DNA of 38,195 nt from a bacterium (GTDB lineage Bacteria > CSSED10-310 > JAJRTK01): the NCBI GenBank assembly GCA_024278345.1, contig JAJRTK010000094.1:1-38195 (forward strand). Direction: 5' to 3'. The position numbers and the translations under genes are program-made. How positions within the stretch are numbered: position 1 is the first letter of the stretch; every line of letters starts with the position of its first letter. Of this stretch, positions 6,893-38,150 are shown one piece after another. The notes below the pieces were generated by a model. That model did no database searches and was not told the DNA's origin. It saw only the letters and a program-made list of their open reading frames with translations.

Positions 6893-6969
6893 TCCTCTCT
6901 CCTGAAAATTGGGCATCCGTTGGGGCAATCCCAGCGGCCCGCCGCACAAGAAATTGAACAGGATTTTGA

Positions 6970-7144
6970 CCCGGAAATTTCATCAAATCCCTGCTGCGTC
7001 AACGCAATCATCGCAGCCAACAGCGCCCTCCCCGGTCAGGCATCCTCAACGTCGTTCTACTACGCCTCCGGTGCCTGCCTGTCGTCGGACTCGCCGGCTG
7101 CGCTCCTGCGTCGCCTCGCGACTGGATTTGATGAGAAATCCGGG
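6970..7144 (+). repeat. Inverted-repeat intergenic element, copy 1 (MITE-like)
   Basis: The ends are 21-bp inverted repeats matching at 18 positions: CCCGGAAATTTCATCAAATCC at 6970-6990, and its near complement at 7124-7144. The left end and interior align with copy 2 at 30718-30956 (CCCGGAA-T-TC-TCA...CT-CTGCG). The two also share an identical 17-mer, CTACTACGCCTCCGGTG, at 7057-7073 and 30820-30836. No transposase is present. The element lies between divergent promoters. Confidence 0.75.
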
Positions 7145-7250
7145 TTTGACAGGATTCGCAACCTACCCCAATCATGAACCAAACACAATACAATAAAAAT
7201 CGTTCAGTGCTCGCATCTGGGGGCGAGAGCGGACCCAGGGCGATAAAGAG

Positions 7251-7288
7251 GCGAGTGGCGGCGGTCGGAGGGCCGGCGACGGGAGCGG
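7251..7288 (+). repeat. 38-bp GC-rich palindromic element, copy 1
   Basis: It begins GCGAGTGGCGGCGG and ends GAGCGG. It matches the copy at 22365-22402 at 32 of 38 positions, and aligns without gaps to the copy at 16528-16565 over the same length with lower identity. It ends 10 bp before the TTGACT of the histidine kinase promoter. Confidence 0.6.
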
Positions 7289-16440: not shown

Positions 16441-16527
16441 GGGGAATGTCCCTGGGGAGCTTCCACGATCTGGAAAATTGGCTGGTGCTCCGGGCTTGGG
16501 GCGTTGACGACAAGAGGGGTGAAAAGT

Positions 16528-16565
16528 GCGAGGAGCGGTCGCCGGACGGCGGCCGATGAGAGCGG
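16528..16565 (+). repeat. 38-bp GC-rich palindromic element, copy 2
   Basis: It begins GCGAGGAGCGG and ends GAGCGG. It aligns without gaps to the copy at 22365, matching at about 26 of 38 positions. The centre, CGCCG-GA-CGGCG, is a perfect small stem. It is the most diverged of the three plus-strand copies. Confidence 0.45.
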
Positions 16566-22292: not shown

Positions 22293-22364
22293 GGTTGTGT
22301 GATCCGAGGGCGGTAAACCCTGCCCGTGGGCGAAGAAAGGCGAGTGGGGGGAACCGCGCGTAAG

Positions 22365-22402
22365 GCGAGTGGCGGCGGACGGATTGCCGTCGCCGCGAGC
22401 GG
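22365..22402 (+). repeat. 38-bp GC-rich palindromic element, copy 3
   Basis: It begins GCGAGTGGCGGCGG and ends GAGCGG, with an imperfect stem around its centre (CGGCGGACGGA / TGCCGTCGCCG). It is the closest relative of the copy at 7251. A shorter piece, GGCGAGTGG, also occurs just upstream at 22339. Confidence 0.6.
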
Positions 22403-22480
22403 AAGTCAACCCAAAGAAAAGAAAGTGATTTGCTCGAGTTGTGCTCTGCCGGAGTCCCACCACCGAAACTTACCCCATGG

Positions 22481-22547
22481 CGGATTTCCTCATCCTTGCC
22501 AGGATCGGCCTCAGCCCGCCTCGTGATGATCCGTGAAGAGATCCCGG
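22481..22547 (+). repeat. Fragment of the inverted-repeat element (right end)
   Basis: The segment with CCTTG near 22494, CGCCTCGTGATGATCCGTGA (22518-22537) and the end AGAGATCCCGG matches the right end of the copy at 30718-30956, where CGCCTCGTGACGATCCGTGA is followed by TGAGAGTTCCGGG. I could not find its left end, so it may be truncated. Confidence 0.5.
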
Positions 22548-29287: not shown

Positions 29288-30598
29288 TTACTGGACCGAA
29301 TTGGCAGCTTTTCGCCCCATGCCATGATAGACGAACCCCATCTTCTGGTACCTCTCGGAATAGTAAATATTCCTTGGATCAAACAAGATAGGAACACGCA
29401 TGACGTCCCGGATCCGCCGAAGATTCATATGGCGGAACTCATTCCACTCAGTAGCCACGACCAATGCATCGGCACCTGTCGCTGCCTCATAGACGCTATC
29501 ACAGTATTGGACAGCGGGGTAGAGTTCCCGCGCTCGGGGCATTGCCTGAGGATCATAGGCCCTCACGGTGGCGCCGGAATCCAGCAGGAGCTTCAGCAAC
29601 TCCATCGCCTTGGCTTTACGGATATCATCGGTGTTTGGCTTGAACGCAAGCCCCAGAAGAGCAATGGTCTTGCCCTCAAGCTCCCCCAGAACCGCGGTCA
29701 TCTTCCTGAAAAACCTCGGAACCCTCTCCTGGTTAATCTTCCATGCGGCCTCAAGGAGCACGGGATCGATGCTATATTTCCGCATCGTATGGATGAGGCT
29801 TTCAAGGTCTTTTGGAAAACAGGAACCCCCAAAACCAAGGCCGGCATCCAAGAATTGCGGCCCGATCCGCTGATCGTAGCCCATGCCTTTGGCGACCTGA
29901 AGAACGTCGGCTCCGGCTTGTTCACAGAGGTCGGCAACCAGATTGATAAAGGAGATCCGGGCCGCCAAGAAGCAATTGGACGCATATTTTATGATCTCGG
30001 CCGATTCCACATCGGTAATGAGCATCGGCCTTTCTAGGGGCGCGTACAGTTCCAGCAGAGTCATGGCAACGGATTTAGAGGGAGCGCCAATCACGATGCG
30101 GTCGGGGCGCAGTGTGTCCTGAATAGCCGATCCCTCGCGGAGAAACTCGGGATTGGAGACCACGTCGAATTCGCCAGACCAGACTTTGTGCTCCGAAATG
30201 ATTCGTCGCACAAGATCCCCCGTCCCGACGGGGACTGTCGATTTGTTGACCACAACCTTGTAACCGTTCATGGCCCGAGCGATTCCGGTGGCCACCTCAC
30301 GAACGGCGGAGAGATCACTGCCCCCATCCCCTTTCGACGGAGTGGGTACCGCAATAAACAGGACCTCCCCTCCCTGGACGGCACTTTTGAGTTCGGTGGT
30401 AAAATGAAGGCGGGCATCCGCATGATTCCGTTTGACCATCTCCTCCAAGCCTGGCTCGAAGATCGGCATTTTTCCACGCTCGAGATCCTCGATCTTCAAC
30501 GAATCCTTGTCCACGCAAACGACGTCGTTTCCAAGATCAGCAAAAACGGCTCCAGTGACCAATCCCACATAGCCAGTGCCGATGACTACAACATTCAA
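29288..30598 (-). CDS. ugd: UDP-glucose/GDP-mannose dehydrogenase family protein, probably UDP-glucose 6-dehydrogenase
   Basis: It oxidises UDP-glucose to UDP-glucuronate with two NAD+, supplying a precursor for polysaccharides. The N-terminus is a Rossmann fold beginning NVVVIGTGYVGLVTGAVFAD, followed by AVPTPSKGDG. The catalytic Cys is in GFGGSCFPKDLESL, and FKPNTDDIRKAKAMELLKLL and the C-terminal domain complete the family. The TTG at 30598 is chosen because GGGAG lies 7 nt upstream and the protein then begins directly with the Rossmann strand (436 residues, normal). An ATG at 30703 would add 35 unrelated residues. GDP-mannose dehydrogenase activity cannot be excluded. It fits with the sugar transferase and glycosyltransferases upstream. 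Confidence 0.93.
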   Translation of the reverse strand: MNVVVIGTGYVGLVTGAVFADLGNDVVCVDKDSLKIEDLERGKMPIFEPGLEEMVKRNHADARLHFTTELKSAVQGGEVLFIAVPTPSKGDGGSDLSAVREVATGIARAMNGYKVVVNKSTVPVGTGDLVRRIISEHKVWSGEFDVVSNPEFLREGSAIQDTLRPDRIVIGAPSKSVAMTLLELYAPLERPMLITDVESAEIIKYASNCFLAARISFINLVADLCEQAGADVLQVAKGMGYDQRIGPQFLDAGLGFGGSCFPKDLESLIHTMRKYSIDPVLLEAAWKINQERVPRFFRKMTAVLGELEGKTIALLGLAFKPNTDDIRKAKAMELLKLLLDSGATVRAYDPQAMPRARELYPAVQYCDSVYEAATGADALVVATEWNEFRHMNLRRIRDVMRVPILFDPRNIYYSERYQKMGFVYHGMGRKAANSVQ

Positions 30599-30717
30599 AT
30601 CTCTACTCCCTCTGACCAGGCGGTCTGTTATCCGCTGGTTCGCCAAACATTTGAATTCTCTTGAGTAATCCCAGCCCAACATAGAATCCGCTCGGGGAAT
30701 CAAGCGGCCTTCCTTGA

Positions 30718-30956
30718 CCCGGAACTCTCGTCACATCTCTACTGCGGCAGCCGATCCATCGTTTCCCCCGGCGTCCTCGTCGGCCAGCTCCTCGACGGTG
30801 CGCAGGTGAGTTGCCCCCCCTACTACGCCTCCGGTGGCTGGCCTTCCTGCTCCTTGGTGGAAACGCGCCTCGAACCGCCTCGTGACGATCCGTGATGATC
30901 CTTGGTGGAAACGCGCCTCGAACCGCCTCGTGACGATCCGTGATGAGAGTTCCGGG
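30718..30956 (+). repeat. Inverted-repeat intergenic element, copy 2 (MITE-like)
   Basis: The ends CCCGGAACTCTCGTCA (30718-30733) and TGATGAGAGTTCCGGG (30941-30956) are inverted repeats matching at 15 of 16 positions. The interior shares blocks with copy 1 and copy 3. It also holds a 48-bp perfect tandem duplication near its right end. No ORF of note. Confidence 0.8.
30851..30946 (+). repeat. Perfect 48-bp tandem duplication inside element copy 2
   Basis: Units 30851-30898 and 30899-30946 are identical, each starting TCCTTGGTGGAAACGCGCCT. Identity across both units implies a recent event. Copy 3 of the element has one diverged unit at the corresponding place. Confidence 0.95.
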
Positions 30957-31038: not shown

Positions 31039-32487
31039 TCAGTAGGCATTCTTGTGGACGGTGAACAATGTCATGAACAGAATCCAACAATCCCGAGCCA
31101 GCGACCAGTTCTCAATGTAAAAGATATCGTATTTGATTCGCTCCTCGATGGAGGTATTTCCCCGAAGCCCTTTGATTTGGGCCAAGCCAGTCATGCCGGA
31201 TCGGACGCGATGCCGAATCATATAATCGGGTATCTTTCGCCGAAATTCCTCGACAAAACTCGGCCGCTCCGGGCGAGGACCCACGAGGCTCATCTCCCCC
31301 TTGAGAACATTCCAGAGCTGCGGCAACTCATCGAGGGAAAGCCGGCGCAAGATCCGCCCGAGCCTGGTAGTCCGGGAGTCATTTTCGCAAGCGAAGACCG
31401 GGCCCGTATGTCTCTCGGCGTCTTCCACCATTGTCCGGTATTTGATCATCTCGAAAGGCCGACCGTCCAGACCCATGCGCTGTTGGCGAAAAAAGACCGG
31501 GCCCCTGTAATCGAGTTTGATGAGAATCGCGATGGCCAGCATCAACGTGGGGCCAGCGGCAAGAAGCACGAGGGAAGAAAAGACAAGATCCATCAAACGC
31601 TTGAGCATCCCATGGATACCGCTCACGGGGGATTGAGACATGTTGATGATAGGCAGCCCGTCAAACTCCTCCACCCCACCTCGCAGAGTGAAGTATTGGA
31701 TGAGATCGGGAATGACCTTCACCGTCACACACTCGCCCTGCAACGACTGAAGGATGGATAGCATGGTCTTGTGCTGCTCCAACGGCAAGGCGATGAAAAG
31801 CTGATCGATACGGTGATCCTGGCAAATGGCCAACGCGTCCTTGCAGTGCCCGAGAATCGGCACCCCATCTACCTCTTCACCCAAGGGGTGCTCGTCATCA
31901 AGAAAGCCCAGAGCCTGGAAGCCCAGACTCGGATGGGCTCGGACTTTCCGCAAAAAGGTCCGACCCAGCTCACCGGCGCCGACGATAGCGATCTGACGCA
32001 GATTAAAACCGCGGCGACGCGCCGCTTTGAGCATCAACCGCAGGATGGCGCGATACCCCAGCACCAACACCACGTTGAGGCAGAACCAGAAGAGAAGAAC
32101 CGTTCGGGAGATCCAAGCCTTGTCTGTAAAAAAGTAGACGAGGAAGGTGCAAAACAAGAACACCTCGAGCAAGCTCTGAAAGACTGTCAACAGCTCTTCG
32201 CCGAGGTTTTCGCTCCGCTTGGGATGGTACAGGTGGTTCGCCCGGAAAATGAAAACAATGGCCGACGCCAGCAAAGCTATCGTCAACGGGTTGAGATAGC
32301 GATTCAAAGGATGGACTTCCACCTCGAACTGAACGATGCGCGCCAAGAGGTCCGAGCTCGCCAAGTACCGCACAAGGGATTCGTCAGCGAAACGCAAGTA
32401 CCAGGCGATGCCCAACGCCGCCAGTGACAGCAGCACATCGCCCACGGCAAACATGCAAACCATCAACCGATGGTGTTTCTTGAGCAT
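31039..32487 (-). CDS. Undecaprenyl-phosphate sugar-1-phosphate transferase
   Basis: It starts exopolysaccharide or O-antigen repeat synthesis by moving a sugar-1-phosphate from a UDP-sugar to undecaprenyl phosphate in the inner membrane. The N-terminal ~150 residues hold four membrane segments. A CoA-binding-like Rossmann region follows (IAIVGAGELGRTFLRKVRAH). The C-terminal bacterial sugar transferase domain has KRLMDLVFSSLVLL, GPVFFRQQRMGLDG, FEMIKYRTM and LSLDELPQLWNVLKGEMSLV followed by GPRPE. The 482-residue length and order match the WcaJ/WbaP-like polyprenyl glycosylphosphotransferase family. GGGAGG lies 5 nt before the ATG. Glucose or galactose is likely, but the substrate is not proven. 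Confidence 0.93.
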   Translation of the reverse strand: MLKKHHRLMVCMFAVGDVLLSLAALGIAWYLRFADESLVRYLASSDLLARIVQFEVEVHPLNRYLNPLTIALLASAIVFIFRANHLYHPKRSENLGEELLTVFQSLLEVFLFCTFLVYFFTDKAWISRTVLLFWFCLNVVLVLGYRAILRLMLKAARRRGFNLRQIAIVGAGELGRTFLRKVRAHPSLGFQALGFLDDEHPLGEEVDGVPILGHCKDALAICQDHRIDQLFIALPLEQHKTMLSILQSLQGECVTVKVIPDLIQYFTLRGGVEEFDGLPIINMSQSPVSGIHGMLKRLMDLVFSSLVLLAAGPTLMLAIAILIKLDYRGPVFFRQQRMGLDGRPFEMIKYRTMVEDAERHTGPVFACENDSRTTRLGRILRRLSLDELPQLWNVLKGEMSLVGPRPERPSFVEEFRRKIPDYMIRHRVRSGMTGLAQIKGLRGNTSIEERIKYDIFYIENWSLARDCWILFMTLFTVHKNAY

Positions 32488-33093
32488 CCCAACCTCCCAC
32501 TTTCGAGCTAAACCGCCTAGCGGATCTCACCCGGTAAGCCCGCACTTGTACCTGAAATACAACTTTACCGAAACCAAGGCAACTCACACAAAAAATAGGT
32601 TCCACCACCAAAATTTAGCAAAAACTGCACCAAACCCTGTGATCTGGAACTCTCCTCACGGCTCGTGGCGAGGCAGTCGGGCGCGGTTCCGCCAAGGACG
32701 AGAGTCGAAGCGCAGCGGGAACTCCCCCAAGATGAACAGGCAGCCACTGAAAGGCGTGGTCATGCAACCAGCCGAGGAGCCGACCGACTTGGATGCCGTA
32801 TGGAGATAGTAGCTCCGAACGCTGCGGAAGACCCGCAACGAGATTTCCGGGTGTGAGGCTCTGGCCCCTTCAACCCCCTGGCCGCCGCAAGGTAGCAGTC
32901 TATCCATACCGGTGCAAGCTCTTGGGAGCAACTGCCCACGAACCGACCCGAAGCTCCCACGGATTGGGTGGTGCTCCGGCCCTTGGGCGGTGACTCGCTC
33001 AAGGGAGTTGTTGTCATCAGCATCTATTAGTGTAGCCAATGTAGACGGTCCGGTGGATCGAAGAAAAGGAGGAGAACTTCCCTTGGGCGCTTT
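32488..33093. other. Long intergenic region between the first GT4 gene and the sugar transferase
   Basis: This 606-bp region holds the AT-rich leader of the sugar transferase (32488-32640), where TTGCTA-18 bp-TATTTT on the minus strand is a weak promoter candidate. The inverted-repeat element copy 3 (32644-32851) follows. The remaining ~240 bp (32852-33093) I cannot explain. A 127-codon minus-strand frame across it is not convincing. No tRNA or terminator seen. Confidence 0.5.
32644..32851 (-). repeat. Inverted-repeat intergenic element, copy 3 (reverse orientation)
   Basis: On the minus strand it starts CCCGGAAATCTCGTTGCGG and ends CCTTGGCGGAACCGCGCC, later GCCTCGCCACGAGCCGTGAG, then GAGAGTTCCAG. 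These match copy 2 in the same order. The interior ACGCCT...GTGGCTG block is also shared. The terminal repeats are more decayed (about 10 of 15). Confidence 0.7.
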
Positions 33094-38034: not shown

Positions 38035-38111
38035 CCCCTCATTTTTTGCTTGTGGGACGCATCCAGGTCAAAGACTCCGACAACTGCTTTTTTCTGCTGG
38101 TTGGCGTCCGG

Positions 38112-38150
38112 TCGGGTCGGCGGCAGTCCGTCCGCCGCCCCTCCCCTCTC
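38112..38150 (-). repeat. GC-rich palindrome related to the 38-bp elements
   Basis: On the minus strand GGCGGCGGACGGACTGCCG matches the core of the 22365 copy at nearly every position. GGCGGC (38119-38124) and GCCGCC (38134-38139) form a perfect stem. The flanks differ from the other copies. Confidence 0.45.

Follow-up and report, generated by a model that had tools for sequence, protein, structure and literature searches.

A lineage-specific MITE family in a CSSED10-310 bacterium and its probable link to an IS1380-type transposase

What is the 239-bp segment lying between a sugar transferase gene and ugd in this bacterium, and by which route could it have come there? The segment (positions 30718-30956) occupies the gap between the UDP-glucose dehydrogenase gene (ugd, 29288-30703 at most, minus strand) and a sugar transferase gene (Bac_transf, 31039-32487, minus strand). 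The 38,195-nucleotide stretch of DNA analysed here, called the window, corresponds to contig C11 in an assembly of 6.06 Mb and 550 contigs that is 87.9% complete. A preliminary description had named the segment copy 2 of an element, bounded by near-perfect 16-bp terminal inverted repeats, and had considered it the best-preserved copy, able to define the family. The position of the neighbouring genes bears out its placement, and the boundaries were recovered exactly, the left repeat CCCGGAACTCTCGTCA (30718-30733) and the right repeat TGATGAGAGTTCCGGG (30941-30956) being complementary at 15 of 16 positions. Copy 2 belongs to a real, recently mobile family of MITEs that most likely depends on IS1380; the family is new, its kind is ordinary and well known, and the support for it is good. 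An orphan intergenic repeat of a sparsely sampled phylum is thereby tied to a named transposase family through its ends, its target duplications and its empty sites.

Copy 2 and its family

Copy 2 belongs to the AACTC-type (B) subfamily and lies on the minus strand relative to the alignment described below. It is not the best-preserved copy. It carries a 48-bp tandem duplication (30848-30895 and 30896-30943, the second unit being 98% identical), so that the ancestral unit measured about 191 bp. The pentamers that flank it, CTTGA and CTGCG, match at two of five positions, and no target duplication is present. Copy 2 would be an insertion, either old or rearranged, between the sugar transferase and ugd, the right arm of which was tandemly duplicated and the target duplication of which may have been mutated or recombined away. 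As a copy to define the family, copy 1 is a better choice. It is an intact, canonical 175-bp element of subfamily C (6970-7144, minus strand) with the target-site duplication TTTGA on its left (6965-6969) and on its right (7145-7149). Besides these two, a profile search detects in the window a diverged 209-bp copy (32643-32851, plus strand) with the exact pentamer TGTGA on both flanks, and a truncated copy having a single end (22464-22547, minus strand, E 1.4e-6). The same search of the reversed window gives no match.

Two other repeats occur in the window. A 159-bp head-to-tail duplication (97%) occupies positions 1-318 at the start of the contig and overlaps a predicted open frame. A second dispersed repeat, AGGCGAGTGGCGGCGG...GAGCGG, is found at 7249-7288, 16526-16565, 22363-22420 and 38090-38147, with one pair inverted (79%).

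The genome search proposed in the preliminary description reveals many copies. With the 239-bp segment as query, blastn gives 50 matches in the genome to which the window belongs. With up to one mismatch allowed, 155 places in the 6.06 Mb match the terminal pattern CCCGGA(N2)TCTCATCA, versus 2 for the reversed pattern, showing that the terminal repeats are beyond chance. In seven other genomes of the phylum, all from other families, the pattern has 0-5 matches each and the element is absent. Its body was not found in 40 other genomes searched, nor was the paired-end terminal pattern found in viral contigs. Relatives of the locus were also sought through the sugar transferase; only distant proteins, mostly from Paenibacillus and Lachnospiraceae, were recovered, and none of them represented the locus.

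A census was made of the loci around about 100 listed matches among the 155, with ends paired 60-460 bp apart. It gave 42 rows and, once an alternative pairing (L038, 357-594) was dropped, 41 elements. Their lengths range from 145 to 402 bp and are mostly about 150-240 bp. According to a simple codon-based gene call, by which about 81% of the window is coding, 38 of the 41 lie outside predicted genes. The neighbouring genes are co-directional in 13 cases, divergent in 6 and convergent in 2; 3 elements are inside predicted genes and 17 are at a locus edge.

Target duplications and empty sites

An exact 5-bp target duplication flanks 17 of the 41 census elements. Four of five positions match in 9 others, and three or fewer in 15. 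Read as 4 or 6 bp, the flanks match exactly in one element each. When left and right flanks are paired at random, exact matches average 0.78, with a maximum of 4 in 1000 shuffles. Both L015 and L017 reach a contig end six bases beyond the element, with identical letters there, and are perhaps not independent; counted once, they leave 16 exact duplications in 40. The 17 duplicated pentamers are 73% AT, compared with 45% in nearby flanks.

Two copies have an empty site in the same assembly, and the family as a whole bears clear signs of recent movement. The preliminary description had implied mobility, and would have taken the sequence at syntenic positions in all relatives, with no empty sites, as an argument against it. 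The first copy, on contig C166 (L030:1308-1482), is flanked by the duplication CTTAG. Its joined flanks correspond to contig C327, 100% identical over 239 bp, where a single CTTAG is present and the element is absent. C327 starts within its overlap with C166, so that the pair resembles a single locus of the sampled population with and without the element. A recent insertion or a precise excision would both fit this allelic-looking pair. The whole joined junction is present elsewhere in the assembly for this one case in 40, two elements at contig ends being outside the query. The second empty site is paralogous, with a partial match of 63 bp: the copy on C278, with the duplication TAGAA, interrupts a short repeat that is uninterrupted on C521 and has one TAGAA there. 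This short repeat, CAGGTTCTACCGGATTTAGTGGTAGAG... (L251:1731-1793, L252:432-494), served as a MITE target.

These observations bear on the idea of a REP, BIME or REPIN-type palindrome spread by a RAYT (Y1) transposase. The family is indeed intergenic, palindromic and present in high copy number, and some copies contain a nested hairpin of about GTAGGGGCGGGTT..AACCCGCCC that resembles the GTAG-type REPs, a class described in PMC3733652. However, the size of the elements (about 150-240 bp), their defined ends and the 5-bp duplications do not fit this idea, and the search for Y1_Tnp in the genome gave one match below the cut-off and no convincing RAYT. We therefore regard a REP origin as very improbable.

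Ends shared with IS1380 elements

PF13701, the profile of the IS1380 family, has a single match in the genome, a C-terminal fragment on contig C239, near the contig end. The sequence TCATGAGATATTCGGG, identical to the MITE end at 14 of 16 positions, ends 192 bp past the stop codon of this fragment. In the intact IS1380 elements described below, the end of the element is 177-274 bp after the gene. No MITE body stands beside the fragment, and this 87.9% complete assembly yielded no intact IS1380 element. Since only a C-terminal fragment is present, the active partner is either absent, lost or not part of the assembly. A further inverted repeat, GGCCTCGGTCATGGTACCGGCC..., interrupts the fragment (L141:1-230) and is found flanking the L006 copy of the MITE too.

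Intact IS1380 elements found elsewhere by means of the C239 fragment were delimited from the inverted repeats and duplications that each of them carries. Among 17 loci examined, 8 were accepted as having ends that start with CC and a duplication (L242, L243, L244, L245, L246, L247, L224 and L231), and 9 gave none. The ends read CCCGGATTTCTCACAA in Nostoc, CCCGGATATTTCATAA in another genome, CCCGCATTTCTCACAG in Pseudomonas putida and Stutzerimonas, and CCCGAATAATTCACCA in a further genome. Compared with whichever MITE end type fits best, these ends agree at 12-14 of 16 positions. An IS1380 element of the same phylum (L215) was also considered; its ends match at only 9-11 of 16 positions and no matching duplication is present there.

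Thus, the MITEs and the IS1380 elements of Nostoc, P. putida, Stutzerimonas plasmids and other sources have matching ends and short target duplications. In contrast, the IS1380 elements are about 1.6-1.9 kb long and carry a transposase gene. Where their ends can be defined, their duplications are mostly of 4 bp, with some of 5 bp, versus 5 bp in the MITEs; 5-bp duplications are printed for IS1247 (PMC3281130) and ISEcp1 (PMC2887853). The bodies are also dissimilar. Profile comparison of the MITE body with six IS1380 sequences gave no significant match, hence the MITE did not arise from one of those six by simple deletion, and only the ends are shared.

Very probably, then, copy 2 is a member of a lineage-specific MITE family that has no transposase gene and is mobilised in trans by an IS1380-type transposase. 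Ends in common with IS1380 elements, 5-bp duplications, two empty sites and a large number of copies are observed, as is an IS1380 relic that bears this end in the family's own genome. The contact between transposase and ends, as well as the IS copy that would have supplied the enzyme, are deduced from these features. An IS1380-family DDE transposase would bind the CCCGGA(N2)TCTCATCA ends in trans, excise the MITE and insert it at AT-rich 5-bp targets, mostly intergenic; repair after insertion would then yield the 5-bp duplication.

Could another DDE family making 5-bp duplications, Tn3-like or IS1634-like, have moved the element instead? Such duplications are made by further families, Tn3 for example (PMC2887853). 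However, a search with PF01609 (DDE_Tnp_1) returned one end fragment and no matching end, and the IS1380 ends agree almost letter for letter with those of the MITE. We consider mobilisation by such a family unlikely to a high degree.

Bacterial MITEs such as MITEAba12, Nezha and the TIMEs are, like the new family, short, non-coding, bounded by terminal inverted repeats, flanked by target duplications and present in high copy number. MITEAba12 and Nezha depend on other transposase families or have other ends. The TIMEs are described as Tn3-derived. In ERIC, Correia and similar palindromic repeats between genes, a long imperfect hairpin likewise spans the entire element, but their ends differ. 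In Anabaena sp. 90, 147 MITEs and an IS1380 element were found, and the study reports no evident resemblance between the ends of the MITEs and those of the ISs in that genome (PMC3542288). A literature search covering titles and the beginnings of abstracts, with most subscription papers and ISfinder outside its scope, gave no IS1380-associated MITE, and the present family may be the first one described.

The hairpin and its subfamilies

The whole element folds as one hairpin, and single copies pair over most or all of their length. Folding both strands, as the preliminary description had suggested, gives structures more stable than those of shuffled sequences (z -2.86 on the plus strand and -4.46 on the minus strand). 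The copies were compared in an alignment, A1, of 28 sequences, 13 of the 41 census elements being left out as short, long or nested. A common structure of 68 pairs, derived from the same A1 sequences on which it is scored, has 87.7% of its cells paired and 24 pairs changed on both sides. The covariation score is 0.241, compared with 0.144 for shuffled alignments and at most 0.070 for slid ones. The count of two-sided pairs taken alone is close to that of shuffles (24 versus 20.8, reached in 46 of 500).

The signal appears between subfamilies. Two-sided changes keeping pairing between them amount to 156 cells, versus 81.2 in shuffles, with only four or five subfamilies and hence few independent events behind this argument. 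Of the body, 89% is common to the consensuses of A and B, and 61-68% to every other pair, with a conserved centre. Positions that differ on both sides are still paired in 10 of 14 cases for A-C, 9 of 12 for A-D and 12 of 15 for B2-C; retention is weakest for B1-B2 (1 of 3) and C-D (8 of 14). Within subfamilies, from which L153 and L155 were excluded for these counts, single changes keep pairing at about the level of chance in A (7/18, 0.36 expected) and C (23/54, 0.38 expected). They do so somewhat more often than expected (0.36-0.39 over the subfamilies) in B1 (8/14) and B2 (9/18). In the active lineages, stems seem to have been rewritten on both arms with pairing kept and with the centre GGAGGCGTAG...CTACGTYGAGGA almost unchanged, and inserted copies seem to decay with little protection of pairing.

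A structured RNA or RNA regulatory element that functions in the host and was duplicated could also form a hairpin on both strands and retain pairing between subfamilies through two-sided changes. However, pairing is not clearly protected within subfamilies, placement is not tied to gene ends among the 41 elements, an empty site exists, and Rfam has no match in the window at gathering score. G-U classes are in mild excess over A-C classes (33 versus 20), a difference judged not significant by eye, so that no strand is singled out, which also counts against a host RNA. In our opinion, a host RNA has little chance of being the right explanation. Rather, because pairing is kept between subfamilies and the resident copies look nearly neutral, the data suggest that the lineages which propagate are subject to a constraint or to a copying mechanism. 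Tentatively, and as a possibility that we hold to be less than even, the hairpin body and not only the ends might be needed for propagation, the IS1380 system or an arm-to-arm correction at replication maintaining a full-length palindrome in its passengers. Given this opposition between stem pairing at the level of lineages and near-neutral decay of copies, the role of MITE hairpins can be put to the test.

A short protein-coding repeat was also considered. Among the subfamily C copies, 8 of 10 have one reverse frame open, and substitutions in C fall unevenly on the three codon positions (182/91/231). However, 8-base gaps in C shift the frame, no periodicity is seen in A (65/63/63) or B (294/291/266), and no frame is open in every copy of any subfamily. 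A coding repeat is thus extremely improbable, and the family, tested for this feature of MITEs, has neither a transposase gene nor a conserved reading frame.

Finally, some copies of the MITE host other palindromes. In L003, L013, L014, L027 and L028, a nested hairpin near GTAGGGGCGGGTTT.CAACCCGCCC, resembling a GTAG-type REP, stands in place of the MITE centre. Two MITE copies, L060 and L029:1501-1902, enclose a palindrome of about 60 bp near GTAACCGTTCAC...GTGAACGGTTAC.
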